Origin: Pseudolactococcus piscium
Lineage (GTDB): Bacteria > Bacillota > Bacilli > Lactobacillales > Streptococcaceae
Length of the DNA: 64,000 bases
NCBI RefSeq assembly: GCF_002441695.1
Contig: NZ_JXJW01000001.1
Location: forward strand, 124,001-188,000
Direction of reading: 5' to 3'
The notes beneath the pieces were generated by a model, which saw nothing but the letters and a program-made list of their open reading frames with translations, searched no databases and was not told the DNA's origin. Positions 44,815 through 63,873 of this stretch are shown piece after piece. Made by a program: the position numbers and the translations under genes. Within the stretch, counting starts at the first letter, position 1. The number at the start of each line of letters is the position of its first letter.

Positions 44815-44835
44815 AAATGAATTAGGAGTAGTCTG

Positions 44836-45741: not shown

Positions 45742-45771
45742 CGACAATGATTAACTCAGTTTATTATGATG

Positions 45772-45862
45772 GCTTATGCTATTTAGCAATAGCATAAGCA
45801 GATGATAGTATAAATGACCATGAAATCTCTGTTTTTCATACAGATTTCATGGTCATTTTATT
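45772..45862. terminator. tandem hairpins: operon terminator region
   Basis: GCTTATGCTATT-TAGC-AATAGCATAAGC (45772-45799) is followed by a second, stronger stem at 45812-45859 (TGACCATGAAATCT with AGATTTCATGGTCA) with T-rich ends on both sides. The second serves the bgl operon on the plus strand and the phosphatase gene on the minus strand. Confidence 0.8.
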
Positions 45863-45870
45863 TTTCATTA

Positions 45871-46467: not shown

Positions 46468-46481
46468 CGTTCACCTCTATT

Positions 46482-46528
46482 TTCATTATATTGTATTTGC
46501 GAAATCCCCACAAATACAATATAATGAA
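46482..46528. promoter_or_regulatory. symmetric divergent promoter in an 18-bp perfect inverted repeat
   Basis: TTCATTATATTGTATTTG (46482-46499) and its exact reverse complement (46511-46528) flank an 11-base centre. A plus-strand promoter TTGCGA-17-TATAAT (46497-46525) and a minus-strand TTGTGG-17-TATAAT (46513-46485) mirror each other inside it. The LysR protein encoded to the right may bind here. Confidence 0.65.
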
Positions 46529-46560
46529 GTCATATATAAATAAAAGTTATGAGTTGACCT

Positions 46561-47391: not shown

Positions 47392-47442
47392 AACTAGTAG
47401 GTTTAGTATGTGAAAATATTGTTCCCAAAAAAGTTAGACATT

Positions 47443-47470
47443 AAGACAAGATCATTTCTTGTCTTTTTTG
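47443..47470 (+). terminator. terminator after the LysR gene
   Basis: AAGACAAGA-TCATT-TCTTGTCTT followed by TTTTG. Confidence 0.85.
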
Positions 47471-47578
47471 TTACTTTGCATCAGTTAATTATCGTTTATC
47501 AGGCTTATCCAGATCGATAACTGCTTAATTCAGTTACTCAAAGTAAGGTGATAGGTGATTAAAATGAGATTAAGACCA

Positions 47579-47631
47579 TTGACATTTCAATAGTCAATTG
47601 TTAATATACATATAGGGGGTATGGGTATATG
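47579..47631 (+). promoter_or_regulatory. promoter and CsoR-type operator of the metal-sensor/ABC operon
   Basis: TTGACA (47579-47584), a 17-bp spacer and TAATAT (47602-47607). CATATAGGGGGTATGGG plus TATATG (47609-47631) is a G-rich quasi-dyad like CsoR-family operators. It includes the ribosome binding site and the start codon, so repressor binding would block early transcription. Confidence 0.65.
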
Positions 47632-47913
47632 AGTAAGAAGAAGGTAAAAAGAGATGCAGCACTTGTTAGCGATTTAACTAGACGGACTAATCGTATAGAA
47701 GGGCAAATTAGAGGCATTACTAGGATGGTCAATGAAGATGTTTATTGTGATGATATCTTGCATCAGATTATTGCTGCTAAAGCTGCCTTAAATGCTGTTA
47801 GTAAACTATTACTGAAAAATCACATGCAAACGTGCTTGGTTGATGGGATTAAGGATAATAATGAAGCCATTATTGATGAGGTGTTAGCTACAATTGGGAA
47901 AATGATTAAGTAA
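47629..47913 (+). CDS. CsoR/RcnR-family (DUF156) sensor repressor
   Basis: A 94-residue all-helical repressor of the CsoR family. Residues T-N-R-I-E-G-Q-I-R-G-I form the DNA-binding face typical of the family. Cys40 (V-Y-C-D-D), His65 and Cys69 (N-H-M-Q-T-C) give a Cys-His-Cys set as in Cu(I)-sensing CsoR; a persulfide sensor (CstR) normally lacks this His. It is followed 13 bp later by an ABC exporter rather than a copper ATPase. Copper sensing is therefore suggested but not certain. Confidence 0.85.
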   Translation: MSKKKVKRDAALVSDLTRRTNRIEGQIRGITRMVNEDVYCDDILHQIIAAKAALNAVSKLLLKNHMQTCLVDGIKDNNEAIIDEVLATIGKMIK

Positions 47914-47926
47914 AGGAGATCAGTAG

Positions 47927-48889
47927 ATGAATATTATTGAAGTGAATCAGTTAACAAAGACATACCATAAAAATAATGGGGAAGCTTTTGATGCAGTCAA
48001 AGCCATTAATTTTACAGTTAAATCTGGTGAGATTTTTAGTTTTCTTGGTCCAAATGGAGCTGGAAAATCCACAACCATTGGGATGCTGACAGCTCAAATA
48101 CTGCCTACCTCAGGCAGTATTAAGATTTTTCAAAAAGCTTTAGATGCGAATGTTACTGAGTTAAAATCTAAAATTGGTGTGGTAACGCAACATAATAATC
48201 TTGATAGAGGGTTGACGGCTAGAGAAAATTTACTTTATCATGCCCATTATTTTGGGATGCATGGTGAAGCGGTAAAGCAACGTGTCGACTTTTTACTTGA
48301 AAAATTTGGGTTAAAAGCGTGGGAAAATGAATTTGTTAAGCATTTTTCAGGTGGTATGATTCAACGGCTGAAAATCGCAAGAGCGATTGTGCATAAGCCA
48401 GAACTATTATTCCTTGATGAACCAACAACAGGATTAGATCCCCAATATAGAGAAATTCTTTGGGAACAAGTGCTTGACTTAAAGCAAGAAGGCACAACTA
48501 TTTTTCTAACAACGCACTATATGGAAGAACCTGAAAGGTTTTCAGATAGAATCGCCATTTATGCTAAGGGAGAAATTAAAGCGATTGGGACAGCGCAAGA
48601 ACTTAGAAAGCTGATACCGGGACACCTGATTGCGAGGTTAACGGGAGCTAATATTGAGGCGAATCAAGTTAAGGTGTTACAGGACTTATCTTTCGTTGAA
48701 AAAGTTGACTTCACAGATCAAGCTATCGTTTTCTATTTAAAAGATGGAGATCAATCAAAAACTGATTTTGTAACCTGGTTAATAAACTCACAAATTAGGT
48801 ATGATAATTTGACAATATCAAGTGCAACATTAGATGATATATTTATTCAATTGACATCTGAGCAAGAGGAGAATGGGGGGGATGTATGA
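47927..48889 (+). CDS. ABC exporter ATP-binding protein (DrrA-like)
   Basis: A 320-residue ATPase: Walker A G-P-N-G-A-G-K-S-T-T, signature F-S-G-G-M-I-Q-R-L, Walker B L-L-F-L-D-E-P-T-T-G-L-D-P and switch His in T-T-H-Y-M-E-E. The C-terminal ~80-residue extension is typical of drug or metal ABC-2 exporters. TAAAGGAGATCAGTAG precedes the ATG. Its stop overlaps the permease start (ATGA). It is controlled by the CsoR-type gene upstream. Confidence 0.92.
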   Translation: MNIIEVNQLTKTYHKNNGEAFDAVKAINFTVKSGEIFSFLGPNGAGKSTTIGMLTAQILPTSGSIKIFQKALDANVTELKSKIGVVTQHNNLDRGLTARENLLYHAHYFGMHGEAVKQRVDFLLEKFGLKAWENEFVKHFSGGMIQRLKIARAIVHKPELLFLDEPTTGLDPQYREILWEQVLDLKQEGTTIFLTTHYMEEPERFSDRIAIYAKGEIKAIGTAQELRKLIPGHLIARLTGANIEANQVKVLQDLSFVEKVDFTDQAIVFYLKDGDQSKTDFVTWLINSQIRYDNLTISSATLDDIFIQLTSEQEENGGDV

Positions 48890-49671
48890 CTAGACAAGAC
48901 TTTCGTGTTATGAAATTTATGATTAAACGAGATTTACTAATTCAACTTCGAGATAAATACGAGTTTATTTTCCGAGTGGCGATGCTGCCATTTATCCTGA
49001 TCTTAGTATATGGCTATGTCCTACCCAAATCTGGTATCTTACCTGAGACATTTCCTCAATATATGTTCCCTGGGATAATTGGGATGAGCTTACTGCTAAC
49101 AGGTATTCATGGGACGGCAATACCACTCACGATGGATTTTAATATGTCACGAGAAATCGAGGATAGGCTACAAGCGCCAATTAAAACAAGTTACATTGCT
49201 ATCAGTAAAATGATTGTCGGGATTATTCAGTCATGGATTGGTGCGCTCATCGTCTTACCAATTTCTCTCTTGTTCATGCGACACTATATTGTTGTTTCAA
49301 TGACTAGCGGTCAAATAATCGGGTTTTTCTGTGTAATATTTTTAGCGTCCTTCACATCAGCAGCTCTAGGACTTTTGGTGGGGACAATCGTTAAGCCAAA
49401 TCAAATCGCAGCCATGTTTCCCGGCTTTTTAATGCCAATTGTATTTACAGGTGCAATTTTCTTTACTTGGGATTCTCTGGCAAAAACACCACTTATTCAA
49501 AAATTAGTGTTAATCAATCCGCTCTTGTACATTAACGAAGCCCTAAGGTCGCTAATGATTCCAAATGCACCATCAATTCCTATTTTTTATAGCCTATTAG
49601 GGATTATTGGGTTTACAATTTTAATGGGTGCTATCGGATATAAACGATTTAAAAGGTTAGTTGTAAAATAA
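48886..49671 (+). CDS. ABC-2 type exporter permease
   Basis: A 261-residue membrane protein of the ABC-2 family with six predicted helices and the characteristic N-terminal R-D-L-L-I-Q-L-R-D-K-Y-E-F and the conserved P-x-x-x-L-x-P-I-V-F-T-G-A-I-F region. It starts within the ATPase stop codon. Cargo is unknown; the CsoR-type regulator points to export of a metal chelate, a peptide or a thiol-reactive compound. Confidence 0.88.
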   Translation: MTRQDFRVMKFMIKRDLLIQLRDKYEFIFRVAMLPFILILVYGYVLPKSGILPETFPQYMFPGIIGMSLLLTGIHGTAIPLTMDFNMSREIEDRLQAPIKTSYIAISKMIVGIIQSWIGALIVLPISLLFMRHYIVVSMTSGQIIGFFCVIFLASFTSAALGLLVGTIVKPNQIAAMFPGFLMPIVFTGAIFFTWDSLAKTPLIQKLVLINPLLYINEALRSLMIPNAPSIPIFYSLLGIIGFTILMGAIGYKRFKRLVVK

Positions 49672-49832
49672 ATATCTACTCAGGTTTCCTAAAAGAATAG
49701 GCATGAGCAGATATTTAATGATCTAACTAGATGTTTTTGACAGAACAATGAACAAAAAATGTTAAAAAACTAGTGATTTACAAAAGGTTTGAGGGACTTT
49801 TTAATGAGAAATTTTGTAATTGATAAAAGTAA
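49672..49832. terminator. weak terminator-like hairpin after the ABC exporter
   Basis: AAATATCTACTCA and TGAGCAGATATTT pair with one mismatch (49673-49713) but are followed by AATGATC rather than a T tract. Nothing else is seen up to the next promoter. Confidence 0.4.
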
Positions 49833-49861
49833 TTGACATCGCTTTCATGATATGCTAAAAT
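49833..49861 (+). promoter_or_regulatory. promoter and perfect cre of the second beta-glucoside operon
   Basis: TTGACA (49833-49838), a 17-bp spacer and TAAAAT (49856-49861). TGACATCGCTTTCA (49834-49847) fits the cre consensus TGNNANCGNTNNCA and lies between and over the -35 box. Confidence 0.78.
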
Positions 49862-49871
49862 AAAAATTAAT

Positions 49872-49962
49872 AAGGGCTTGTTACCGTAATAAGGGCAATA
49901 CCTAAATATATGTGTCATCTTTAACGGTGTTTTTCGTATATTTTGGGGTATTGTTCTTTTTT
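49872..49962 (+). promoter_or_regulatory. RNA antiterminator (RAT) site and terminator of the second operon
   Basis: AAGGGCTTGTTACCGTAAT followed by AAGGGCAATACC (49872-49902) matches the RAT pattern. It overlaps the left arm (49894-49912) of a terminator with right arm CGTATATTTTGGGGTATTG (49935-49953) followed by TTCTTTTTT. Confidence 0.82.
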
Positions 49963-49976
49963 GTTTGGAGAAAATA

Positions 49977-50813
49977 ATGAAAATCAAAAAAGTGCTAAAT
50001 AATAATGTGGTGATTGCTTCGGAGACAGAAACGGGGCAAGAAAAAATAGTGATGTCAAATGGGTTGGGTTTCAATAATAGCATTGGAGATGAGATAGACA
50101 AAACAGACAGTCAAAAAATATTTGTTTTGTCTGATGATGTCTATCAAAAGTACGTCACCTTAACACAACATATTGATCCTAAGGCATCCGTATTGGCAGA
50201 AAAAATTATTTCTTATGCACAAGAACAGTACCACATGCCGTTAAATGAAATTATTCATTTAACGCTTACTGACCATGTCGATTCTGTTTTATCACGAGTT
50301 GAAGTTGGTCAATTACTGACCAATAAATTGACATTAGAAATCAGTAGAATATACGAAAAAGAATTTCAAATTGGCCAATATGCTCGCCAATTGATTTCAG
50401 AGATGGTTGGAAAGGAGATTTTAGCTGACGAGGCAGCATTTATTGCCCTACATATTTTGAATAACAGAATTGATTTAGATGAAAGTGAAAAACAAACGAA
50501 CACAACGGTGAAATTTATTTCAGATATAGTAAAGGTTGTTGAAACTTATTTTCAGTGTCAGTATGATGAAACATCTTTTTCCTACTATCGATTCGTTATG
50601 CATCTAAAAGGATTGGTCAAAAGGTTAGGCTCTAGTAAGTTTAAGGATGATAATACCTTATTTGAGACGATGGTCGTGACTTATCCAGAGGCTGCAAAAT
50701 GTGCAATAAAAGTTGAAAAAATGATTTTTCTAAAATATCATAAGGGCATCGGGTCGGAAGAGAAAGCTTATTTGATTTTATATATTGAAAAGTTAAACCG
50801 TGAAAAAGAATAG
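49977..50813 (+). CDS. BglG/LicT-family antiterminator (second operon)
   Basis: A 278-residue antiterminator with a CAT RNA-binding domain (residues ~1-55, M-S-N-G-L-G-F-N-N-S-I-G-D) and two PRDs. His residues are seen in L-T-D-H-V-D-S, I-A-L-H-I-L-N-N and F-V-M-H-L-K-G, but the last PRD2 site reads A-Y-L-I-L-Y-I-E-K-L-N-R, with Tyr where the family and the paralogue at 44836 have His. TTTGGAG precedes the ATG. It is first in its operon, in front of its own PTS gene. Confidence 0.88.
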   Translation: MKIKKVLNNNVVIASETETGQEKIVMSNGLGFNNSIGDEIDKTDSQKIFVLSDDVYQKYVTLTQHIDPKASVLAEKIISYAQEQYHMPLNEIIHLTLTDHVDSVLSRVEVGQLLTNKLTLEISRIYEKEFQIGQYARQLISEMVGKEILADEAAFIALHILNNRIDLDESEKQTNTTVKFISDIVKVVETYFQCQYDETSFSYYRFVMHLKGLVKRLGSSKFKDDNTLFETMVVTYPEAAKCAIKVEKMIFLKYHKGIGSEEKAYLILYIEKLNREKE

Positions 50814-50883
50814 TACTCATGCATAGTAAATCGATCCGATTTATTATGCATGGGCATACGTGAAAGAATTGATTGGAGAAGAT

Positions 50884-52746
50884 ATGGATTACTCAAAAAT
50901 TGCATCTAAGATTTTAGCAGGTGTTGGTACACAAGATAACGTGGGGTCGTTAACACATTGTATGACACGTCTGCGTTTTGTTTTAAAAGATGATAGTAAA
51001 GCTGATGACGACTTAATTGCTGACCTAGAAGGTGTTGTTGCAGTTAAACGTCAAGGTGGTCAATACCAAGTCATTATTGGTAATGAAGTGGCTAAAGTTT
51101 ACGATGAAATCAATAAAGTTGGTGCCTTTTCAGATGCTGGTAATAGCAATGTGAAAAAAGAAAAGCAAAATATTTTTTCAACTATTATTGAGTTTATAGC
51201 TGGTTGTATGTCCCCTTTATTTCCAGCACTTATTGGGTCTGGTTTAGTAAAAGTGGTCTTGTTAATTTTAGGGCCTAGTATTTTCAAACTGATTACGGAC
51301 ACGAGTGATACTTATATCATTTTGAATGCCCTTAGTGATGCAACATTCTATTTCCTACCTATTTTGGTAGCTGCAACAGCAGCACAACGTCTAAAGACAA
51401 ATATGTATATGGCGATGACCATTGCGGCATTCCTAGTCTATCCTGGCTTAATTACGCTATTAGGTGGTGATAAGGCAACGCATTTATTTAATGTCTTCCC
51501 TGTCGTGCATGCATCATATGCGTCATCTTTATTGCCAGCTATGCTGTCTACTTTACTCTTGAAACATGTTGATATCTCAGTAGATAAAGTAACACCTGAG
51601 TGGGCTAAAAATTTCTTTAAACCACTTGCTACATTATTCATTACAGGGTTACTTGCCTTGGTCATTTTAGCGCCAGCAGGCGCTATCTTGGGTGACTGGC
51701 TCATGGTAGCAGTTGACACGCTACATACTTATGTACCTTGGCTCACAATTCCTTTATTAGCTGCATTTATGCCTTTTATTGTTATGACTGGTATGCATTG
51801 GGCATTTTTACCAACAACAATCATGGCTTTGAGTAACCCAAATATTGGTTTTGATATGCTTTTACTACCAGCTATGTTTGCATCAAATATTGCCCAAGCA
51901 GGTGCTGTATTCGGCGTCGCTTTGAAATCGAAAAGTACTGAAGTTAGAGGGATGGCTATCCCTGCGGGTATCTCTGCCTTACTTGCGGGTGTAACTGAAC
52001 CTGCCTTGTACGGCGTTAGTTTAAAAAATAAAAAAGTACTCTATGCACAAATGCTTGCGGGTGGTGCTGCAGGTCTAATAGCCGGTATCTTTTCTCTAAA
52101 ATCATTTGCGATGGCAACACCAAGTTTGTTGTCAATTCTACAGTTTATCGCGCCAAAAGATGGTAACAATTTCATCATTGCGTGTATCGTTTTTGTTGTT
52201 TCCTTTGTTGGATCACTTGTTGGTGCTTACTTCTTGATCAAACCAAATACGGTTGCAGCAAGTACATCAGATCATGACGTGATCAGTGAAGCAGAGTTGA
52301 CTGTGAGAAATCCGATTGAAGGCAATGTCATTGCTTTATCAGATGTTGAAGATGCGACTTTTGCATCTGGCGTTTTAGGTAAAGGCTATGCAGTTGAACC
52401 AAGTGAAGGCGTTGTGAAAGCCCCGTTTTCTGGAACAGTCGAGTTAATGATGAATTCATATCATGCGGTTGGCCTAAAATCTGATAGTGGTATCGAATTA
52501 TTGATTCATGTCGGCATTGATACGGTAGAACTTGCAGGCAAATATTTTACGCCGAAGGTAAAACAGGGAGACCAAATTAAACTTGGTGATACATTATTAA
52601 CTTTTGATATTAAAGCAATTAAAGCAGCAGGTTATCCAATTGTCACACCAATCATTGTCACTAATACGGATGATTTTTCTGAAGTGAAAATTGGTGAATT
52701 GGGTGATAAATTACTTTTAGAAACAATGATTGAATTTAAGAAATAG
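50884..52746 (+). CDS. beta-glucoside PTS EIIBCA (second system)
   Basis: A 620-residue EIIBCA: EIIB with T-H-C-M-T-R-L-R-F (active Cys ~26), EIIC with ~10 helices and G-V-T-E-P-A-L-Y-G-V, EIIA with L-L-I-H-V-G-I-D-T-V-E-L (active His). The ATG at 50884 follows TTGGAGAAGAT; an upstream in-frame GTG is less likely. It is a paralogue of the EII at 41528 and followed by its own GH1 gene 10 bp downstream. Probable substrates are aryl- or disaccharide beta-glucosides. Confidence 0.9.
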   Translation: MDYSKIASKILAGVGTQDNVGSLTHCMTRLRFVLKDDSKADDDLIADLEGVVAVKRQGGQYQVIIGNEVAKVYDEINKVGAFSDAGNSNVKKEKQNIFSTIIEFIAGCMSPLFPALIGSGLVKVVLLILGPSIFKLITDTSDTYIILNALSDATFYFLPILVAATAAQRLKTNMYMAMTIAAFLVYPGLITLLGGDKATHLFNVFPVVHASYASSLLPAMLSTLLLKHVDISVDKVTPEWAKNFFKPLATLFITGLLALVILAPAGAILGDWLMVAVDTLHTYVPWLTIPLLAAFMPFIVMTGMHWAFLPTTIMALSNPNIGFDMLLLPAMFASNIAQAGAVFGVALKSKSTEVRGMAIPAGISALLAGVTEPALYGVSLKNKKVLYAQMLAGGAAGLIAGIFSLKSFAMATPSLLSILQFIAPKDGNNFIIACIVFVVSFVGSLVGAYFLIKPNTVAASTSDHDVISEAELTVRNPIEGNVIALSDVEDATFASGVLGKGYAVEPSEGVVKAPFSGTVELMMNSYHAVGLKSDSGIELLIHVGIDTVELAGKYFTPKVKQGDQIKLGDTLLTFDIKAIKAAGYPIVTPIIVTNTDDFSEVKIGELGDKLLLETMIEFKK

Positions 52747-52753
52747 GAGATAG

Positions 52754-54202
<1,449 letters not shown>

Positions 54203-54378: not shown

Positions 54379-54395
54379 TTGAAAACGGATACAAT
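54379..54395 (+). promoter_or_regulatory. cre site before the Nif3-like gene
   Basis: TTGAAAACGGATACAAT fits the WTGNAANCGNWNNCWW form of the cre consensus and overlaps a TACAAT -10 box (54390-54395). The -35 is weak. It indicates CcpA control of the downstream plant-glycan cluster. Confidence 0.7.
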
Positions 54396-54429
54396 GAAAG
54401 TATGCAAAGTAAATGAAAGAGGTAATGCA

Positions 54430-55299
54430 ATGAAAATTCAAGAAGTAATTGATCGTTTGATGGCCTACCATCCAGATTTAGGTGATGCAGAAACGTGTGA
54501 TGGTATTAAATTTGGCGATGCACAAGTAGCCTGTACAGGTATTGTCTCGGCTTTGGTCCCAACAGTTGAGGTCATCAAACAAGCTATCTCATTAGGCGCT
54601 AATCTTTTAATCGTTCACGAGCCAACATCATATCTGACGCCTGATTGGTCAGAATGGCGCGCAGATTTTGACTGTCAAGTTTATGATGAAAAAATAGCCT
54701 TAATTCAAGCGCATCAACTTGTGATTTTTCGAGATCATGATCACATGCATGCAGATCAGCCAGACCAAATTTTTACAGGTGTCTTAAGCTATTTAGGGTG
54801 GCTACCTTATTTGACGGATACACAAACTGTTCCTTTTGGATTTACCATCGAATTTCCAGAGTCAAAAACACTTCATGCGATTAATCAAGAGTTGATGATG
54901 AAGATTGGGATGAATGGCTTACGCTATGTTGGCAATGGCCAAGCTAGGATTAAAAAACTTGCATTTGTCGGTCATCTTTTTCCAGATGCTTTTATCCCAC
55001 AACAGGAAAAAGAAGACGGGACTTGGACAGATTATGCAACAGAACTCATAAAAAGCATGGCGCAGGATGGCATCGAGTGTATCATTCCAGGTGAGGTGGT
55101 AGAGTGGACAGTGCTATCTTATATTCGTGACGCAAATGCTCAGGGAAAAAATCTTGCTTGTATTAATCCAGGTCATTTTAATTGGGAGGAATTGGGGGAA
55201 AAGTATGCAGTAGCATGGCTTAAAGAGATTACAGACGCGCAAGTACCTGTGACCTATGTGGCATCTGGGGATCTTTGGCAATACGAAATTAAGCAATGA
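54430..55299 (+). CDS. Nif3-like (DUF34) metal-binding protein
   Basis: A 289-residue diverged member of the Nif3/DUF34 dinuclear-metal family. Counterparts of the family motifs are seen: E-T-C-D-G-I-K-F-G-D for the N-terminal D-x-x-G-L-x-x-G-D segment, L-L-I-V-H-E-P-T-S-Y where most members have H-H-P, R-D-H-D-H-M-H-A-D for the N-x-H-x-x-x-D segment, and N-P-G-H-F-N-W-E-E at the C-terminus. The ATG at 54430 follows AAAGAGGTAATGC; the longer upstream frame lacks a ribosome binding site. CcpA control and position ahead of a glycoside transporter suggest a catabolic role. Function unknown. Confidence 0.72.
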   Translation: MKIQEVIDRLMAYHPDLGDAETCDGIKFGDAQVACTGIVSALVPTVEVIKQAISLGANLLIVHEPTSYLTPDWSEWRADFDCQVYDEKIALIQAHQLVIFRDHDHMHADQPDQIFTGVLSYLGWLPYLTDTQTVPFGFTIEFPESKTLHAINQELMMKIGMNGLRYVGNGQARIKKLAFVGHLFPDAFIPQQEKEDGTWTDYATELIKSMAQDGIECIIPGEVVEWTVLSYIRDANAQGKNLACINPGHFNWEELGEKYAVAWLKEITDAQVPVTYVASGDLWQYEIKQ

Positions 55300-55355
55300 C
55301 TAGCATGCAGATTGTCTTAAATATACTTATGGTGCCATAAAGTCATGACATAACT

Positions 55356-55382
55356 AAACCGGAGTTGCATCTCTGGTTTTTT
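55356..55382 (+). terminator. terminator after the Nif3-like gene
   Basis: AAACCGGAG and CTCTGGTTT (one G-U) around TTGCAT, followed by TTT. Confidence 0.72.
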
Positions 55383-55453
55383 AGTGGCTTAAATGAGCGA
55401 AAAGTGCAAAAAATGACAAGTATTCTGAAAAGAAAAGGAAAGATAGCTAGAAA

Positions 55454-55467
55454 AGAAAGCGCTATCA
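55454..55467 (+). promoter_or_regulatory. cre-like site before the GPH transporter gene
   Basis: AGAAAGCGCTATCA matches the cre consensus except at the first position (A for T). It lies 46 bp before the transporter start and may add CcpA control to the transporter-esterase operon. Confidence 0.55.
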
Positions 55468-55512
55468 TTGTCTTAGATATAAAAATAACGAAATTACATA
55501 GGAGGCTTTACG

Positions 55513-56865
55513 ATGAATGAAGTAAGTCAAAAAATGCCATTGTTGGAGAAAATCAGTTATGGCGCAGGTAATATGGGGATTTGTCTAAGTACAACAGTCA
55601 TTACAACATTTGCCATGTTTTTCTATACCAACGTCATTGGTATCAATATTTTACAAGTAGGCACGATTTTACTATTTGGTGGTATTGTTGATGCCATCTC
55701 AAATGCTTTTATGGGTGTGATCGTTGATCATACAAAATCACGTTGGGGAAAATGTCGACCTTATTTGATTTTTGGTGCCATTCCAATGGCAGCAGCTTGT
55801 TTCTTTGTTTTCCATGTTCCTGATGCAAGTGCCTCAACAAAATATATTTACGCACTCATTACCTATATCATCTATACTTTGGCTTGTGCCGCAGTCTTGA
55901 TTCCACAAAATGTCTTGATGGCAGCAATTACAGATGATCAAGATGATCGCTTAGCCACTAATATGTTTGGCTCACTAGGCACTAACTTTGGTCAGCTGAT
56001 TCCAAGTTTAATGACCTTAGGCTTGGTTGCATTCTTGGGGAATGGGTCAGACTACAAGGGGTTTAACTATGTGATTCTAATCTTTGGTGTCATCGGTGCA
56101 GCATTAACCATGATGGCTGGTTTCAATACAAGAGAACGGATGAACATGTCCGCAATTGGCCAACAAAAAATTTCAGCTAAGGATACCCTTCGATCTTTTA
56201 AAAATGGGCCATGGCTACTGGTGACACTGATTACCTTATTTATCATTGCCCAAGTTGTCGTTAAAGCATCAACGACGGTTTATTATACAACCAATGTCCT
56301 GGGTAATCCTGGGGTTTCATCTGCCTTGCTATCGATTTTAAGTATTATTGGTGTGCCTATCACACTCATTATTCCGATTATTGCTAAAAAAATCGGGAAA
56401 CACAAACTTGTCCTGATGGGTGCAGCCATGGGTATTATTGGGAATATGGGCTTACTTGTTACTAAGGGCAATATTCCTGGTGTGATTGCTTGTACAGCCT
56501 TTGCAGCAGCAGGATCAGCCTTTATTACTGGGATTGTATTTGTCATGTGTGCTGAAACAGTTGACTATGGGGAATGGAAGACTGGTATTCGTGTACAAGG
56601 CTTTCTAATGGCCTTTATCGGTTTTGCAGTCAAGGTCGCTAATTCTATCGTACAACTGTTAATTTCAGGGATTCTTAATTCTGGTGGCTTTAATGGTCAA
56701 GCAAAAGTTCAAACTGCGTCGGCAGTTAACGCCATTGAATTCTGTTATGTTTGGTTACCTATTATCTTTTTCGCAGCGGTTATTATCTTGAACTATTTCT
56801 ACAAATTAGATAAAATATACCCACAAGTTATAACTGATTTGGAAGCCAGACGTGCAGCTTTATAA
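55513..56865 (+). CDS. GPH-family glycoside/pentoside:cation symporter
   Basis: A 450-residue transporter of the glycoside-pentoside-hexuronide family with ~12 membrane helices. It begins K-I-S-Y-G-A-G-N-M-G, typical of the family, and has D-A-I-S-N-A-F-M-G-V-I-V-D-H-T-K-S-R-W-G-K-C-R-P-Y, its main signature. It lacks the C-terminal EIIA-like domain of LacS. AGGAGGCTTTACG precedes the ATG. Relatives carry xylosides, isoprimeverose, melibiose or glucuronides. The esterases behind it suggest substituted xylo-oligosaccharides or other plant oligosaccharides. Confidence 0.9.
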   Translation: MNEVSQKMPLLEKISYGAGNMGICLSTTVITTFAMFFYTNVIGINILQVGTILLFGGIVDAISNAFMGVIVDHTKSRWGKCRPYLIFGAIPMAAACFFVFHVPDASASTKYIYALITYIIYTLACAAVLIPQNVLMAAITDDQDDRLATNMFGSLGTNFGQLIPSLMTLGLVAFLGNGSDYKGFNYVILIFGVIGAALTMMAGFNTRERMNMSAIGQQKISAKDTLRSFKNGPWLLVTLITLFIIAQVVVKASTTVYYTTNVLGNPGVSSALLSILSIIGVPITLIIPIIAKKIGKHKLVLMGAAMGIIGNMGLLVTKGNIPGVIACTAFAAAGSAFITGIVFVMCAETVDYGEWKTGIRVQGFLMAFIGFAVKVANSIVQLLISGILNSGGFNGQAKVQTASAVNAIEFCYVWLPIIFFAAVIILNYFYKLDKIYPQVITDLEARRAAL

Positions 56866-56929
56866 AAATAAGACATGTGGCGTCAAGTGAGACAAACATG
56901 TCTGATGATAACTTAAAAAGGAGAACATT

Positions 56930-57721
56930 ATGTCAATATTTAGAACTTCATTTGCTTCAGCTTCCCTGTTTCGGACCGTCAATTTAACGGTCATTGTGCC
57001 GATTGAGTCTTACGGTAATCCTGAACTTGAGGCAAATAAACCCCAAAAATTTAAAACACTTTATCTTTTACATGGGTTTGGTGGCAGCCAAGATGATTGG
57101 TTGGATTATACTAATTTGAGAAGCCTGGCTGAACTGCATAACTTAGCGATTGTCTTACCAGCTGCTGAAAATAGTTTTTATGAAAATATTGGCGGTATCG
57201 GTGGTGATTATAGTGATTTTGTCGGACAAGAAATCGTTGACTTTACACGCCGTGCTTTTCCTCTCTCAGACAAGCGAGAAGATACTTTTATTGGCGGCTT
57301 ATCAATGGGCGGATTTGGCGCGTTAAGATTAGGTATGCTGTATCATCAAACATTCAGTAAAATTATTTCTCTATCCGGTGCTTTTATTATCGATAATATC
57401 ACAGATATTAAGCCAGATCATCGTGACATGATTGCTGATTACGCCTACTACACAAGGATTTTTGGCGATTTAAAACAATTAAAAGGTAGCGATAAGGACC
57501 CGCTTTATTGTGTGGATCAAGCAATTAGTTCAGGTCTTGTGCCAGCAGTTTATCAGGCAGTCGGTACGGAGGACTTTTTACTAGAAGAAAATCATAATAT
57601 GCGTGATGCTTTAACAACACGTCAAATTCCCCTAGACTATCATGAAAGTTCAGGAATTCATGATTGGCAATTTTGGAATACGTATTTACCAAAAGCCATT
57701 GATTGGCTGTTAACCGAATAA
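56930..57721 (+). CDS. alpha/beta-hydrolase esterase (EstA/CE1-like), first of three
   Basis: A 263-residue esterase: oxyanion region L-L-H-G-F-G-G-S-Q-D-D-W near residue 46, nucleophile elbow G-G-L-S-M-G-G-F-G-A-L around residue 124, acid Asp in V-G-T-E-D-F and catalytic His in G-I-H-D-W-Q-F-W near 248. AAAAAGGAGAACATT precedes the ATG. There is no signal peptide, so it is cytoplasmic, matching import of esterified oligosaccharides by the transporter. The family includes tributyrin esterases and acetyl/feruloyl esterases; the G-x-H-D-W-x-x-W end is common in CE1-type enzymes. Confidence 0.85.
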   Translation: MSIFRTSFASASLFRTVNLTVIVPIESYGNPELEANKPQKFKTLYLLHGFGGSQDDWLDYTNLRSLAELHNLAIVLPAAENSFYENIGGIGGDYSDFVGQEIVDFTRRAFPLSDKREDTFIGGLSMGGFGALRLGMLYHQTFSKIISLSGAFIIDNITDIKPDHRDMIADYAYYTRIFGDLKQLKGSDKDPLYCVDQAISSGLVPAVYQAVGTEDFLLEENHNMRDALTTRQIPLDYHESSGIHDWQFWNTYLPKAIDWLLTE

Positions 57722-57802
57722 AAAATGGCGTATACTGGATTTGTGACATAAAAAATTGTTAAAATTGACTCAAAAGATGAATTGCTAACAAAGGGAGCGC
57801 AT

Positions 57803-58675
57803 ATGCCAGAACTCTATGAGACTGAAGAATTTACCAGAGATCAAATTCCGATTCGTATATTTAATCACTATTTTGAAGGAAAAGACATTTTTACACCTGC
57901 GCACTGGCACCAAAATGTCGAATTCAACCTCACAACTGGTGGTTGTATTCAACATATGGTAGCTGGTGAGCTATTTGAGCATCAACCTGGTGATGTTGTG
58001 ATCGTGAATAGCGGTGTCCTGCATAGTAATCATTGGATAGCCCCAACAGATTATTTTGAAGGGGTAACGGTTCAAGTCTCTAAAGCATTTCTTGATCAAT
58101 GGCTGAGCAGTCGCTTATCATTTCAGGTTCCTGATAAGGCTTATGAACGTGAGGAGTTGATCGCAGTCTTACTGAAGTTTGGTCAATTAAAAAGCCAACT
58201 TGGTGATGACACGCGTTATGATGAGGCTGACAAAAATGAAGCGATGACACAATTGATTCAGTTGCAATTGATGGCAACTCTCTTTCAACTGTTATCTGTG
58301 TTAAAAGCCTATTGTTCAGTTGAAAAAACAATTGATCACCAGCGCGATATTAGGTCATCCGAGACTTTAAAAGAAATTGTCAACTATATTGATGGTCATT
58401 ATCAAGAAACGGTTTCGTTGGCAAGTGTTGCGGCGGCCTTTCACTATACGCCCGCCTATTTATCACGGATTTTCAAATCACGTATGGGGATGAAATTTCA
58501 TGATTACCTGCAATATAAACGGCTACATAGCTGTATTTCGGTTATGAGAAATCATCCTGACCGTCAACTAGCGGCTCTAGCCCTGGATAACGGTTTTCCA
58601 AATGTCAAATCCTTTATTGAAACCTTTAAAAAACACTTTGATTGTACCCCATCAGAGTGGCTGAAAAAAGAATAG
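57803..58675 (+). CDS. AraC-family transcriptional regulator
   Basis: A 290-residue activator: N-terminal cupin (~20-95, H-W-H-Q-N-V-E-F-N-L and Q-P-G-D-V-V-I-V-N) and a C-terminal double HTH (~195-290, S-L-A-S-V-A-A-A-F-H-Y-T-P-A-Y-L-S-R-I-F-K). The ATG at 57803 follows AAAGGGAGCGCAT. Located between the first and second esterase genes, it probably senses a sugar or aglycone and activates this cluster. No operator could be assigned. Confidence 0.88.
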   Translation: MPELYETEEFTRDQIPIRIFNHYFEGKDIFTPAHWHQNVEFNLTTGGCIQHMVAGELFEHQPGDVVIVNSGVLHSNHWIAPTDYFEGVTVQVSKAFLDQWLSSRLSFQVPDKAYEREELIAVLLKFGQLKSQLGDDTRYDEADKNEAMTQLIQLQLMATLFQLLSVLKAYCSVEKTIDHQRDIRSSETLKEIVNYIDGHYQETVSLASVAAAFHYTPAYLSRIFKSRMGMKFHDYLQYKRLHSCISVMRNHPDRQLAALALDNGFPNVKSFIETFKKHFDCTPSEWLKKE

Positions 58676-58684
58676 GAGTAGCTA

Positions 58685-59485
58685 ATGGCTTATCTTGAAC
58701 TACAATTTGCATCACAAGCAATTTCAAAATATACAACACTTAAAGTGTACTTACCATCAGATGGGACTAGTGGTACACTTTTTGAACCACCTTATAAAAC
58801 AGTATACTTTTTACCAGGATTTAGTAATGACGCGACTGCTTTGATGACTTATTTAGGACTTCGAAAAGAATGTGAACTCAAGGGCATTGCAATCGTTATC
58901 ATTGATGGTGACAATTCATTTTATGTTGAGCAGGCTAACCATCAAGCCAATTATTCGACTTTTATCAGAGAAGTTGTTGAGGTCACTCGGAAACTCTTAC
59001 CTTTGTCAGAAAATCGTAATGATACATTCATTGGTGGTATCTCAATGGGTGGCTATGGTGCCTTACTGAATGGCTTACGTTTCCGTGATATGTTCTCTAA
59101 AATCGTTGCCTTGTCACCAAGTGCAGACTGCTATGATTTGATTTGCCACCACGATATGTTGTTTCAAGAAGCCCTGTTTACCACGACATTTGGAGATAAA
59201 GCCACTTATTATGCTGAGGATACAAATCTGGCAAAATTTTATGGAGAAGTTGATCAAGCTGATATGCCAGAACTTTTTATTGCTTGTGGCGAACAAGATG
59301 ATCTGGTCTTAAAAGGTGTGACTGACTTACGTGACAGCTTGATAAAGGAAGGGATTTCATTTGTCGATAGACGTGGCACAGGGAAACATGAGTATGCTTA
59401 CTGGGAAAAACAAATGGATCCAGCATTTTCATTTTTAGCTGACATCCAACCTGGCACACAAGCTGACCTTATTTTGAAATTTTAG
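58685..59485 (+). CDS. alpha/beta-hydrolase esterase, second of three
   Basis: A 266-residue esterase related to the protein at 56930: F-L-P-G-F-S-N-D-A-T-A for the oxyanion region (Gly-Phe in place of His-Gly-Phe), F-I-G-G-I-S-M-G-G-Y-G-A-L for the nucleophile Ser near 125, and G-K-H-E-Y-A-Y-W near 238 with the His. ATAGGAGTAGCTA precedes the ATG. It starts 9 bp after the regulator stop. The replacement in the oxyanion loop suggests a different ester from that of its paralogue. Confidence 0.83.
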   Translation: MAYLELQFASQAISKYTTLKVYLPSDGTSGTLFEPPYKTVYFLPGFSNDATALMTYLGLRKECELKGIAIVIIDGDNSFYVEQANHQANYSTFIREVVEVTRKLLPLSENRNDTFIGGISMGGYGALLNGLRFRDMFSKIVALSPSADCYDLICHHDMLFQEALFTTTFGDKATYYAEDTNLAKFYGEVDQADMPELFIACGEQDDLVLKGVTDLRDSLIKEGISFVDRRGTGKHEYAYWEKQMDPAFSFLADIQPGTQADLILKF

Positions 59486-59502
59486 CAGTGAGAGGAAGTC
59501 CT

Positions 59503-60642
59503 ATGGTATCAAGAGCACTCATGACGCAGTTCTTATCTGCCTGTCCGATTTTACCCCCTAAAGATAATGTGTTGGCTCAAGAAGCAGATGAAACTGGACA
59601 AACCTGGCTTCAAGTTAAGGCTGACCAAGCAAAATCAGTCCAATTAGCGATTTATGATCAAGTATATGATTTCAAGAAAAATGACGCAGGTATTTGGCGC
59701 TTAGCCTATCCCATGTCAGATGGGATTACGATGGTACAGTTACGGATTGATGAGCAAGACGTGTTAACGCCCTATCTTCCTATTGGCTATGGCTATAGTA
59801 GGCCTTATAATTATGTGGCTCTTGATACAGATGAGGCTAGTTTTTATGGCTTAGCTGATGTCCCCCACGGCACCATTCATCACGAGTACCTTAAGTCTCA
59901 GGTCACTGGTAATTGGGAACGCTGTCTCGTTTATACACCGCCCGGTTATGAAGCACAGACAGATACAAGCTACCCAGTCCTTTATCTACAGCATGGTCAT
60001 GGTGAAAATGAAATTGGATGGACCAGTCAAGGAAAAGTCAATTTCATTTTGGATAATTTACTTGCCAAAGGCACATGCAAACCGTTTATCGTTGTCATGA
60101 GCAATGGCATGGTACAAGTCACGGATGCGTCTGGTCAAACCGTTGTGGATCATACCTTATTTGAAAGCTACTTACTTAAAGATGTTATTCCGACGATGGA
60201 AGGTAAATATCGGATCATCGGTGACCGGGACAATCGTGCGATGGCTGGCTTATCGATGGGGTCAATCCAAACCAGTATCGTCACCTTTAATCATCCGGAG
60301 CTTTTTAGTCAAGTCGGCTTGTTCAGTGGCTTTCTACACGATTTCATTCAAGGTCACGCCCTCATGGATATGGTCAAACGTGATCCGTCTGACAACGCAC
60401 ATTTGATGAGGTTAACTGATGCCAATAGGTTTTTAACTGACTACGATGTCTTTTTCCGAGCAATAGGCGAACAGGATATTTTTATGGCAGAGTTTGAAGC
60501 AGATAATGTCTTACTTGATAGCAAAAATATTTTGGATCAGCGTAGTCTGTATAAAGGTGGTCATGATTGGAATGTATGGCGCAAGTGCATCAGAGACTTT
60601 GCGTCTCTACTATTTCAAGATAGTACCCATAAAAAAATATAA
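59503..60642 (+). CDS. esterase with N-terminal E-set domain (feruloyl/enterochelin-esterase-like)
   Basis: A 379-residue two-domain protein: an N-terminal immunoglobulin-like E-set domain (~1-105) as in CE1 feruloyl esterases and enterochelin esterases, then an alpha/beta hydrolase with V-L-Y-L-Q-H-G-H-G-E-N-E-I-G-W, nucleophile elbow M-A-G-L-S-M-G-S and His in G-G-H-D-W-N-V-W-R. The start at 59503 follows GAGAGGAAGTCCT. No signal peptide is seen. The architecture is that of ruminal and gut feruloyl or acetylxylan esterases. Ferulate or p-coumarate release from arabinoxylan oligosaccharides is a plausible role; substrate is inferred. Confidence 0.85.
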   Translation: MVSRALMTQFLSACPILPPKDNVLAQEADETGQTWLQVKADQAKSVQLAIYDQVYDFKKNDAGIWRLAYPMSDGITMVQLRIDEQDVLTPYLPIGYGYSRPYNYVALDTDEASFYGLADVPHGTIHHEYLKSQVTGNWERCLVYTPPGYEAQTDTSYPVLYLQHGHGENEIGWTSQGKVNFILDNLLAKGTCKPFIVVMSNGMVQVTDASGQTVVDHTLFESYLLKDVIPTMEGKYRIIGDRDNRAMAGLSMGSIQTSIVTFNHPELFSQVGLFSGFLHDFIQGHALMDMVKRDPSDNAHLMRLTDANRFLTDYDVFFRAIGEQDIFMAEFEADNVLLDSKNILDQRSLYKGGHDWNVWRKCIRDFASLLFQDSTHKKI

Positions 60643-61096: not shown

Positions 61097-61411
61097 ATGG
61101 ACGACGCACAGATGGCAGTTATTATGCCGTTGATTATGTACGGGGGAGAGGCAAAATCTTCAGCGGTAGAAGCAATTCGCGCAGCTAAAACAGGTGATTT
61201 TAAAACCGCTGACGAACGGATCGCAGCAGCAAGTAAATCAATTATTGAAGCGCATCATAGTCAAACTGAATTGTTGACTAAAGCAGCAAATGGTGAGGAT
61301 GTACCTGTATCTATTTACATGGTACATGCGCAAGACCATTTAATGACAGGCATTGCTTTCGTTGATTTGGCGAAAGAAATCATTGATTTGTACAAGGTGA
61401 TTAAAGCTTAA
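61097..61411 (+). CDS. lactose/cellobiose-family PTS EIIA
   Basis: A 104-residue EIIA of the lactose/cellobiose family, all-helical trimeric type. The phosphorylated His is expected in Y-M-V-H-A-Q-D-H-L-M (His ~77), and E-A-H-H-S-Q-T-E-L-L around residue 54 matches the family. AAAGGAGACAT precedes the ATG. Genes for EIIC follow; no EIIB gene is found in the window, so the protein must use a partner encoded elsewhere. Confidence 0.9.
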   Translation: MDDAQMAVIMPLIMYGGEAKSSAVEAIRAAKTGDFKTADERIAAASKSIIEAHHSQTELLTKAANGEDVPVSIYMVHAQDHLMTGIAFVDLAKEIIDLYKVIKA

Positions 61412-61415
61412 AAAC

Positions 61416-61480
61416 AAACCCCTTCGTGTCTGGTTACACCTAACCAAATAGAAGGTTGATGTTTAAAGGGGAGAAAAAAT
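61416..61480 (+). promoter_or_regulatory. inter-cistronic mRNA structure that could cover the EIIC ribosome binding site
   Basis: CCCCTT (61418-61423) is complementary to the AAGGGG Shine-Dalgarno sequence (about 61468-61473) before the EIIC gene, and an inner hairpin GGTTACACCTAACC (61431-61444) lies between. This could tune translation of EIIC. Confidence 0.35.
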
Positions 61481-61481
61481 T

Positions 61482-62948
61482 ATGAATGCATTACAACAGT
61501 GGATGGAGAGACACATCGTCCCAATCGCAGCTAAAATTGGGTCGCAAAAACATTTAGTTGCCCTTCGTGATTCGTTTGTCGGCATGTTACCAGCAACGAT
61601 GGTAGGGGCTATGGCGACATTAGTCTCTGTACTGATTGGTACTGTACCCAGTGCGATCCAACAATTAGTTGAAGGACCTACGAAAGCCGCAGCAGCAGCT
61701 GCTGCAGGCAATGCTTGGACATTGTCAAAAACACCTGTTTTTGAACAACTTGCTGGCATTTCAGGACTCGTGAGCCAAGGGACATTGACAATTATTGGTC
61801 TTATTTTTGCCTTTTCATGGGGGTACAACTTATCAAGAGCCTACAAAGTTAATGAACTTGCAGGTGGTATCGTTGGGGTGGCAGCGCTAATCGCTGGCCT
61901 ACCTAATATTTTAAGCGTTGCGACAGCTGGCCTTTCTGAAAAAGCGATGGCGACTGTTAACAGTAACATCGAAGCGCAAGGTATTGCGACTTGGAAAATG
62001 GCCCTTTCAGTTGGTCAACTAGATGCGGGTGCTTACTTCGCCGTGATGATTATGGGTGCGCTTGCCGTTATCATCTATGCAAAATTAATGTTGGCAGACA
62101 TTACAATCAAAATGCCTGAATCAGTACCACCAGCAGTATCTAAAGCTTTCTTAGCGATCATCCCAACAATCGTTGCAGTATATGCAGTTTCGGTGATCTA
62201 CTACTTCATTAAAGTATGGACTGGCAGTGACTTGATTTACTTGATTGGTAAATACATCGCTGAACCATTCCAAGCCTTGTCACAATCACTTGTTTCAGTA
62301 TTAATCGTGACCTTCTTCGTCTCTCTCTTCTGGTTCTTTGGTATCCATGGTACTAACGTTTTAGGTCCAGTACTAGATGGTATCTGGGGTCCACTTCAAT
62401 TGGCCAACATGGACGTTTATAAAAAAGTTGGTTTGGCAGGCGTTAAAGAACTTGTTGCCAAAGGGGCAACAGATAAAGCACACGCCGTTGATGGTAGTTT
62501 TGTTACCCTCTGGGTACGGGGTTCTTGGGACGCTTATGCTTGGTTTGGTGGTACTGCGGGTACGATTACACTGATCATCGCTATTCTTTGGTTCTCTAAA
62601 CGTGAAGACTACAAAACAGTGGCAAAACTATCAGTTGCGCCAGGTGTCTTTAACATCAATGAACCAGTCATGTTCGGTATGCCTTTGGTATTGAACTCAC
62701 TCTTCTTCATTCCACTTTTACTAGCGCCAATGGTATCCGTAACCATTGCTTATCTTGCAACTGCAGCACACTTGGTATCACCGGTTGTCTTGCAAGTACC
62801 GTGGGTAACACCACCATTCCTTAACGCTTACATGGCAACAGGATTTGACTGGCGTGCAGTGATTGTAACCATGGTAACCTTTGCAGCTTCATTTGCTATC
62901 TGGTTCCCATTTGTTATCGCATCAAACTCAATGGAAGAAGAAGTTTAA
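61482..62948 (+). CDS. celB: cellobiose-type PTS EIIC
   Basis: A 488-residue EIIC permease of the lactose/cellobiose family with ~10 helices. It starts M-N-A-L-Q-Q-W-M-E-R-H-I-V-P-I-A-A-K-I-G and carries F-F-G-I-H-G-T-N-V-L and F-N-I-N-E-P-V-M-F-G-M-P, the latter with the conserved N-E-P motif of the sugar site. TAAAGGGGAGAAAAAATT precedes the ATG. It pairs with the EIIA at 61097 and needs an EIIB from elsewhere, as in Lactococcus, where ptcB and celB are separate. Substrate: cellobiose or another beta-disaccharide. Confidence 0.9.
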   Translation: MNALQQWMERHIVPIAAKIGSQKHLVALRDSFVGMLPATMVGAMATLVSVLIGTVPSAIQQLVEGPTKAAAAAAAGNAWTLSKTPVFEQLAGISGLVSQGTLTIIGLIFAFSWGYNLSRAYKVNELAGGIVGVAALIAGLPNILSVATAGLSEKAMATVNSNIEAQGIATWKMALSVGQLDAGAYFAVMIMGALAVIIYAKLMLADITIKMPESVPPAVSKAFLAIIPTIVAVYAVSVIYYFIKVWTGSDLIYLIGKYIAEPFQALSQSLVSVLIVTFFVSLFWFFGIHGTNVLGPVLDGIWGPLQLANMDVYKKVGLAGVKELVAKGATDKAHAVDGSFVTLWVRGSWDAYAWFGGTAGTITLIIAILWFSKREDYKTVAKLSVAPGVFNINEPVMFGMPLVLNSLFFIPLLLAPMVSVTIAYLATAAHLVSPVVLQVPWVTPPFLNAYMATGFDWRAVIVTMVTFAASFAIWFPFVIASNSMEEEV

Positions 62949-62976
62949 TCATTCCTCCTTCGTTGGGCAGATGCTC

Positions 62977-63003
62977 AAAAAGACGGCGGAAGTCGTCTTT
63001 TTC
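62977..63003 (+). terminator. terminator after the EIIC gene
   Basis: AAAAAGACG-GCGGAAGT-CGTCTTTTT followed by C, a typical rho-independent terminator that works in both directions. Confidence 0.85.
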
Positions 63004-63062
63004 TATTAAAAAATGATAAAATAGGGACATAGAAATAGCTTAAAAATAGGAAGAGGTAACGC

Positions 63063-63269
63063 ATGTTAGTCGTGAATATGGCAATGAAGCAACAAGATGT
63101 TATTGCAGTTTTGGAAGCAAATGGATATGAATTTTTAGAAAAAAAGGGCATTCGCCTATACTTCAATACTGCTGGTGACTTGGCGGAAAAAGCGGCAGAG
63201 GCTAAAGCGCTAATTAAGGCACAACCTTGGGGAGTCGCCCTATACTTTAATGTAGAGGTGGTAAAATAA
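63063..63269 (+). CDS. small conserved-looking protein of unknown function
   Basis: A 68-residue soluble protein, M-L-V-V-N-M-A-M-K-Q-Q-D-V-I-A-V-L-E-A-N, with a mixed alpha/beta pattern and no known motif. GGAAGAGGTAACGC precedes the ATG; an ATG at codon 6 or 8 is possible. Its stop overlaps the next start by one base (TAATG), so it is the first gene of a three-gene operon ending with DUF3284. Confidence 0.65.
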   Translation: MLVVNMAMKQQDVIAVLEANGYEFLEKKGIRLYFNTAGDLAEKAAEAKALIKAQPWGVALYFNVEVVK

Positions 63270-63448
63270 TGCTACAAAAATGGGGATGGGCTTTTATTAG
63301 CTTGGCACTTTTAATCTTTATCTCAACGCTACAAGGTGCTGGTGCCTTCCTAATCTTAAGTATCTTGGTTTTCATCCTTGGTCTTGGGATGGTCATTGTG
63401 GGCGGCAAAAAAGATAAAGCAGAGCAAAATGGGGAACCTAAGGTATGA
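63269..63448 (+). CDS. small two-helix membrane protein
   Basis: A 59-residue protein: M-L-Q-K-W-G-W-A-F-I-S-L-A-L-L-I-F then L-Q-G-A-G-A-F-L-I-L-S-I-L-V-F and a basic/acidic tail ending E-N-G-E-P-K-V. There are two hydrophobic helices. It starts in the stop of the previous gene and its stop overlaps the DUF3284 start (ATGA), which supports that it is translated. The family is not recognised. Confidence 0.68.
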   Translation: MLQKWGWAFISLALLIFISTLQGAGAFLILSILVFILGLGMVIVGGKKDKAEQNGEPKV

Positions 63449-63873
63449 AAATAGTAAAAACTTTGGCTGTACCTCGCCAATTTGTCTTTGAAAAAATTCT
63501 TGAATCGGGTCTGTATGATATTGAAAAAAATACTGGTAAACGCCCTAAAACAGCTAGTTTATCTGGATTTAAGTACAAGAAAAAATTTGGTGCCAAGCAA
63601 AATCAAGCAGGTGAAATCGTTATTGATGAGGTCATCGAACCTGCTGTTTATGCCTTTACAACAAAAACGGTTAGAAATACTTACACCACACGTTGGGAAA
63701 TGCATCGGATTGATGACAAGCTGACAGAAGTAGTGATTTCAGAAGATATGATCTCACACGGTTTTTTCCAAAATTTGAATGATATGATGATGCAAATTGG
63801 TCTGGGCTGGGTGAAGAAACGACAGATGACAGCCATTTTAAACAGTATTTCAAGCGCCTATAACGGACGCTAA
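63445..63873 (+). CDS. DUF3284 family protein
   Basis: A 142-residue protein of the DUF3284 family (START-like/polyketide-cyclase-like beta-rich pattern), starting M-K-I-V-K-T-L-A-V-P-R-Q-F-V-F-E-K and ending A-I-L-N-S-I-S-S. DUF3284 genes in streptococci and lactococci often lie next to cellobiose PTS genes, as here. The function is unknown. Its start overlaps the upstream stop, so it is translationally coupled. Confidence 0.78.
   Translation: MKIVKTLAVPRQFVFEKILESGLYDIEKNTGKRPKTASLSGFKYKKKFGAKQNQAGEIVIDEVIEPAVYAFTTKTVRNTYTTRWEMHRIDDKLTEVVISEDMISHGFFQNLNDMMMQIGLGWVKKRQMTAILNSISSAYNGR

Follow-up and report, generated by a model that had tools for sequence, protein, structure and literature searches.

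The genes examined here have their closest described counterparts in several different systems. The sucrose/raffinose locus of Ruminococcus gnavus combines AgaSK, an alpha-galactosidase/sucrose kinase, with a sucrose-6F-phosphate phosphorylase, according to the available part of PMC6521584, and the available part of PMC8040265 assigns the CBM48-CE1 esterases Bacint_01039 (6ne9), wtsFae1A (6rzo) and DmCE1B (7b5v) to xylan loci. Esterases of the EstA/FphF type, which belong to PF00756, are represented by the structures 2uz0, 6vh9 and 4rgy. A further solved relative is XynX (9g9u) of Geobacillus proteiniphilus T-6, which we take to be a protein of the Geobacillus xylan cluster, encoded near a GDSL acetylxylan esterase. 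We analyzed a stretch of 64,000 nucleotides from Pseudolactococcus piscium (contig NZ_JXJW01000001.1, positions 124,001 to 188,000; hereafter the window), in which a unit at 54430-60642 encodes a NIF3/DUF34-like protein, a GPH symporter, an AraC-type regulator and three esterases (EST1, EST2 and EST3). Our preferred reading, held with about even confidence, is that the unit forms a catabolic cassette whose substrate is a small acylated sugar, most likely acylated sucrose (e.g. its feruloyl, coumaroyl or acetyl esters), and that it is shared with Lachnospiraceae through descent or transfer. All of its parts come from known families, while their combination and the proposed substrate were absent from the literature searched (titles, covering part of the matches).

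The kinase and phosphorylase families of the R. gnavus locus are also found in clostridial cassettes related to this unit, and a GH36-kinase fusion seen at some clostridial loci has the AgaSK architecture; unlike the R. gnavus locus, however, these cassettes have esterases in place of the alpha-galactosidase, and a search of the window cassette for sucrose kinase and sucrose-6F-phosphate phosphorylase found neither. EST3 resembles the CBM48-CE1 esterases of xylan loci in architecture and catalytic residues, but it lies outside the clade that holds the Bacteroidota rows of our tree and has other gene neighbours. The NIF3-like protein shares the fold of XynX, whose presumed xylan-cluster context differs, and EST1 and EST2 align over much of their length with EstA/FphF-type esterases but are encoded in a unit with a sugar transporter. 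The features of the unit, with the candidate regulatory site (a catabolite-responsive element, cre) in front of it, are as follows.

54379..54394, + strand: candidate cre-like site, TTGAAAACGGATACAA, a pattern match just 5' of the NIF3-like gene, identical in G003
54430..55299, + strand: NIF3/DUF34-like protein, divergent paralogue, first gene of the unit (PF01784, fold, synteny)
55513..56865, + strand: GPH cation symporter, the importer (TIGR00792; 60% identity to the GPH symporter of the L042 cassette)
56930..57721, + strand: esterase 1 (EST1), single-domain PF00756 protein
57782..58675, + strand: AraC-type regulator with a cupin-like N-domain (PF12833, PF02311)
58685..59485, + strand: esterase 2 (EST2), single-domain PF00756 protein
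59488..60642, + strand: esterase 3 (EST3), CBM48-CE1 type, predicted feruloyl esterase-like

A first-pass annotation of this DNA had named the transporter, the AraC regulator and the three esterases, and these are confirmed at the coordinates above by their open reading frames (ORFs) and by matches to PF00756, TIGR00792 (310.4 bits for the symporter, against a curated cut-off of 231.35), PF12833 and PF02311. It had overlooked one further member, the NIF3-like gene at 54430-55299, which stands first and brings the unit to six genes. Its conserved start is at 54430, the mechanical ORF spanning 54379-55299, and the regulator more likely starts at an ATG at 57803, judged by eye. All genes of the unit lie on the plus strand, the five from the symporter to EST3 with small gaps between them. 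In G003, a genome of the same genus, NIF3, GPH, EST1, AraC, EST2 and EST3 follow in the same order at 95-99% identity; since this order is kept and the set recurs in Clostridia, the gene set is not due to chance. The 5' flanks differ, with a beta-glucoside operon in the window versus a DUF915 gene in G003.

The unit may be regulated by the AraC protein and by catabolite control through the cre-like site. The pattern is based on the usual cre consensus, and a looser pattern gives five matches within the window. Promoter and terminator scans of the unit gave no signal above shuffle level. Composition was considered as a sign of transfer and rejected as uninformative, the six genes having a GC content of 38.5-42.5% against 38.9% for the window.

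Against a PF00756 cut-off of 22 bits, EST1 scores 56.0, EST2 52.7 and EST3 63.6, and these esterases account for three of the seven PF00756 matches in the genome. Within this one Pfam family they represent two architectures, as had been noted earlier: EST1 and EST2 are single-domain proteins with 33% identity to each other, which by sequence come closest to the solved structures 4rgy and 7l0a, and EST3 is a longer protein of the CBM48-CE1 type. Residues 37-377 of EST3 align with 6ne9 (E 4.5e-58), and 6rzo (from residue 34) and 7b5v are matched as well; its CBM48-like N-domain is supported by the alignment to 6ne9 and 6rzo, with no separate Pfam CBM48 match at E 0.001. Judged by family, EST3 is probably feruloyl esterase-like. 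The Ser, Asp and His residues to which we presume a catalytic role, from what is known of the family, are invariant among the cassette sequences: S125/D215/H244 in 12 sequences of EST1, S120/D205/H235 in 8 of EST2, and S256/D330/H359 in 11 of EST3. None of the N-termini is strongly hydrophobic, and from sequence the three esterases are likely cytoplasmic.

The combination of one importer and three esterases that are probably cytoplasmic and represent two architectures supports the earlier proposal that the imported molecule carries several ester groups, and acetyl plus feruloyl groups would fit the families. The oxyanion loops cited in the same context are present, LHGFG in EST1 and LPGFS in EST2 (QHGHG in EST3), but the argument that their difference reflects different acyl groups is not supported: the loop position is P in seven of eight EST2 relatives and H in one, and because H and P alternate among these relatives the loop says little on the acyl group, so that we discarded it as a marker of acyl specificity.

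The NIF3-like protein passes the cut-off of PF01784 (58.8 versus 23.4 bits) but remains below that of TIGR00486, the YbgI/SA1388 equivalog (29.1 versus 130.55 bits), and is therefore a divergent paralogue. Its predicted fold, with a mean pLDDT (predicted local distance difference test) of 89.8, matches twelve NIF3-family rows at Z 12-30; XynX is the closest solved relative (Z 30.2, root-mean-square deviation 2.1, 261 residues, 31% identity), with SA1388 behind it at Z 23.2. Residues H63, E64, D104, H249 and E253, invariant in 16 of 16 sequences, presumably correspond to the dinuclear metal ligands of the family, and their conservation fits a retained metal site. Half of the 12 NIF3 matches in the Lachnospiraceae draw lie near a PF00756 or GDSL-like gene (L040, L042, L138, L143, L145 and L146), with L138 showing a weak BLAST match plus an S15/BD-FAE-type protein and L146 having been read by eye. 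Taken with the likeness to XynX, these neighbourhoods suggest that the pairing of a NIF3 paralogue with intracellular sugar esterases may not be confined to a single pathway. NIF3/DUF34 is a family whose molecular function is debated (PMC8469502), and the terms 'sugar' and 'carbohydrate' have no occurrence in the available portion of that review; a title-level search of the literature for NIF3 with sugar clusters gave nothing on point. Two further observations concern NIF3 neighbourhoods: NIF3 relatives at L139, L142 and L144 stand near ChbG/YdjC-type carbohydrate deacetylase-like genes (judged by eye), and DUF3237 proteins are encoded beside NIF3 and esterase genes at the clostridial loci L040 (11986-12417), L041 (5960-6370), L043 (6467-6868) and L143 (10138-10572).

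The cassettes of Clostridia show other gene orders and other importers, and their proteins are 30-60% identical to those of the window. We defined a cassette, after seeing the data, as at least three of NIF3, EST1, EST2 and EST3 within about 11 kb, which gave 11 cassette genomes: those of the window, G003 and the nine loci below. Sampling was uneven, as L199 was fetched through a kinase match and L148 through a NIF3 match; the EST3 of L199 also turned up in a 200-genome draw around G1009. The gene orders are listed here with SK for the kinase, SPP for the GH13_18 phosphorylase and MBL for a metallo-beta-lactamase-fold protein.

L042: GPH-EST1-EST3-AraC-EST2-NIF3, nearest to the window in content
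L040: ABC-NIF3-EST2-EST3-EST1-DUF3237
L041: ABC-NIF3-DUF3237-EST1-SK-SPP-EST3-EST2-MBL
L043: ABC-NIF3-DUF3237-EST1-SK-SPP-EST3
L148: NIF3-EST1-SK-SPP-EST3-EST2-MBL
L199: SPP-SK-EST1-AraC-ABC-MBL-EST2-EST3
L047/L208: ABC-NIF3-MBL-EST3-EST1-EST2-sucrose phosphorylase type (EST1 reads in two frames)
L046: GH32-EST3-LacI-ABC-EST1-NIF3-SK-SPP
L049/L150: GH32-EST3-LacI-ABC-MBL-sucrose phosphorylase type-EST1-NIF3

Acylated sucrose is favoured as the substrate because the clostridial cassettes often include sucrose kinase, sucrose-6F-phosphate phosphorylase, sucrose phosphorylase or GH32. A GH13_18 phosphorylase lies inside 7 of the 11 cassettes, together with sucrose kinase in L041, L043, L046, L148 and L199, and as the sucrose phosphorylase type in L047/L208 and L049; the other four genomes (G1007, G1009, G000 and G003) encode one elsewhere. 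A GH32 gene stands directly 5' of EST3 in two Oscillospiraceae (L046 8134-9849, by Pfam; L049 8272-9930, as a homolog). The best PDB match of the L043 SPP (E 1e-167, the next match being 1.4e-84) is 6s9u, the strict sucrose-6F-phosphate phosphorylase of Ilumatobacter. R152, K364 and K434, numbered by alignment to 6s9u, and the YYQ motif are present in 6 of 6 SPP sequences; the three residues are tied to the substrate phosphate, and YYQ is given as a clade motif, in the available text of PMC6720575. By these residues, the SPP of the clostridial cassettes is classed as the strict sucrose-6F-phosphate type.

No informative solved relative turned up for the kinase. Its neighbourhoods were read at 18 kinase loci from 200 Lachnospiraceae genomes, some of them on short contigs. 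GH36 is found at six of these loci: L200 (Pfam) and L201 have the kinase as the C-terminal portion of a GH36 protein, and GH36 lies near it in L195, L202, L204 and L205. Three loci distinct from these six (L145, L196 and L199) have an EST1 relative, and L138 has a NIF3 relative. Kinase-like and SPP-like domains are fused within one ORF of 789-834 aa in L202 (8216-10585), L203 (583-3030) and L204 (8389-10893). The phosphorylase was present in 9 of 9 clostridial genomes with a cassette versus 4 of 11 with EST3 but without a cassette (Fisher p 0.005, shared descent ignored). For the kinase, co-occurrence was counted over three 200-genome draws around G1009, taken as the same set according to their handles: it was found in 6 of 10 genomes with a NIF3 relative versus 12 of 190 without (p 3.8e-5), and in 4 of 10 genomes with EST3 (E 1e-80 or better) versus 14 of 190 without (p 0.007), both Fisher values again ignoring shared descent.

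EST3 is rare around its own lineage: at E 1e-20 it has a match in two of the 335 genomes of the family, and among the 12 genomes of the genus it occurs only in G000 (the window's own genome) and G003. Wider draws at E 1e-25, own genome included, gave matches in 7 of 398 genomes of the phylum and 14 of 299 of the class, the other matches displayed being to the catalytic domain, with 33-37% identity. An alignment-based scan of named genomes, covering the best 80 of 567 relatives and possibly excluding the own genome, placed mostly Lachnospiraceae in its ten best rows (45-54% identity). In a tree of 99 rows, the window and G003 sequences group with 12 clostridial rows in a clade of 14 (support 100/97), and EST3 is thus placed outside the CBM48-CE1 group of Bacteroidota xylan loci, in that a separate 53-row clade, mainly of Bacteroidota and Acidobacteriota, does not include it. 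As EST3 is nested within the clostridial clade, the cassette has most likely passed between this lineage and Lachnospiraceae, or reached both from a common source, and its rarity in the own family suggests the direction of transfer. A plasmid origin was considered and rejected: window positions 40000-64000 have no near match in 72,556 plasmid records, and EST3 matches 78 plasmid records, none of them reaching 60% identity among the matches listed.

If the substrate is acylated sucrose, the AraC protein would sense it or a product and turn the genes on, with catabolite control acting through the cre-like site, and the symporter, a GPH protein by family, would import the sugar ester. EST3 would then take off hydroxycinnamoyl groups, EST1 and EST2 would cleave the other acyl groups, which are probably short (acetyl, for instance), and the freed sucrose would be split to glucose 1-phosphate and fructose by a sucrose phosphorylase encoded elsewhere in the genome. 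In Clostridia the corresponding step might be carried out by sucrose kinase and sucrose-6F-phosphate phosphorylase, or by sucrose phosphorylase, in or outside the cassette. The NIF3-like protein would be a conserved partner, for which a metal-dependent hydrolytic or chaperone step in acyl-sugar breakdown is our guess. Natural plant sucrose esters carry acetyl, feruloyl and coumaroyl groups on one molecule and occur in Polygala, Polygonum, Smilax, lily and buckwheat relatives, as the accessible part of PMC6273327 reports; several acyl types on one such ester would explain three esterases behind one importer. The wider proposal, which we rate a little below an even chance, is that of a portable set of three intracellular esterases and a NIF3 paralogue for plant acylated sucrose, with an importer that can be swapped (GPH or ABC), joined by kinase and phosphorylase in gut Clostridia, transferred to a lactococcus-like lineage, and giving NIF3 a conserved role in acyl-sugar breakdown. 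A literature search on bacterial acylsucrose catabolism found no on-point locus among the titles, which covered part of the matches. If correct, the proposal would make bacterial consumption of plant sucrose esters, a large compound class, recognisable by a gene signature, and would place a divergent NIF3/DUF34 paralogue in a defined sugar-ester pathway, testable by knockout.

Several findings weigh against acylated sucrose. No sucrose-acting gene was found in the window cassette, the G003 cassette or the fetched stretches around L040 and L042. The genome's own phosphorylase is of the sucrose phosphorylase type (best PDB 7qqj), but it sits in the following locus and need not serve the cassette.

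G000:C3 (L207 8757-16737), - strand: raffinose-type locus with sucrose phosphorylase, ABC genes and a GH36 alpha-galactosidase

Moreover, 8 of the 18 kinase loci lack GH36, esterase and NIF3 relatives; L238 (G1023) has only EST3 and EST1, with no GH13_18 match in its genome; L234, from the 14-row clade, has a weak GH3 match (27%) nearby; and the co-occurrence statistics involve few, related genomes under a post hoc cassette definition. To these are added the XynX likeness of the NIF3-like protein and the points favouring xylan that are weighed next.

The main rival, in our view rather unlikely, is that the unit serves uptake and deacylation of small feruloylated or acetylated xylo-oligosaccharides (e.g. 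feruloyl-arabinosyl-xylose) from xylan breakdown, the sugars passing to the xylose and glucuronate pathways encoded upstream. It draws on a locus in the same window, 24-50 kb upstream of the cassette:

4667-30486: glucuronoxylan locus with FGGY kinase, phosphoketolase, aldose epimerase, xylose isomerase, ABC sugar transporter parts, GDSL esterase (16322-17434), GH67, GH3, glucuronate isomerase, a mannitol-dehydrogenase-family protein (UxuB-type), UxuA, 2-keto-3-deoxy-6-phosphogluconate aldolase, PfkB kinase and two ROK proteins

Xylosides are common substrates of GPH transporters, and the rival stays alive because XynX, presumably from a xylan cluster, is the nearest solved relative of the NIF3-like protein. 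The solved EST3 relatives come from xylan loci, and the characterised ones act on xylan (PMC8040265, in the part available). EST3 itself, however, groups with the clostridial cassette proteins, outside the 53-row clade, 19 rows of which have a GH3 or GH67 match nearby and two a GH32 or GH36 match (by BLAST against single reference proteins); the window's xylan locus is also equipped with an ABC transporter of its own and, adjoining GH67, a GDSL esterase. The first-pass annotation had made the cluster dependent on GH3 and GH67 enzymes encoded elsewhere; for GH67 this is not supported, since within the genus the cassette occurs without GH67, and GH67 without EST3: GH67 is present in 3 of the 12 genomes (G000, G006 and G010), it is absent from the cassette-bearing G003, and G006 and G010 have it without EST3, so that the two do not go together across the genus. 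A cell-wall glycan is not the best fit; the sucrose enzymes of the clostridial cassettes point to acylated sucrose, with the XynX likeness leaving room for a xylan-derived substrate.

Another acylated small glycoside (acyl-glucose, chlorogenate-like compounds, phenylpropanoid glycosides or acylated beta-glucosides), its sugar entering general pathways such as the neighbouring beta-glucoside phosphotransferase system (PTS) and GH1 enzymes, appears unlikely to us. Plants make many such esters (PMC6273327, part available), the window cassette contains no sucrose or xylan gene, and its immediate upstream neighbours (41486-54202) are beta-glucoside PTS and GH1 genes, but that operon is missing at this place in G003 and the clostridial cassettes contain sucrose-type enzymes, not GH1. 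We consider it very improbable that the three enzymes serve broadly in detoxification or lipid/ester hydrolysis, with a sugar transporter unrelated to them in the same operon. EST1 and EST2 do match EstA/FphF-type structures, and the physiological roles of such enzymes are broad or unclear; against this, the three esterases, NIF3, AraC and a sugar importer recur together in several Clostridia in changed order, which argues for one pathway.

On the 3' side of the cassette, after a gap of 454 bases, the window and G003 alike carry IIA and IIC genes of a lactose/cellobiose-family PTS and a DUF3284 gene (61097-63873). Elsewhere in the window, at 30607-35650, two adjacent minus-strand genes encode FMN reductase domains; one of the two also has FMN-binding and FAD-binding domains, and an ApbE gene lies near them.

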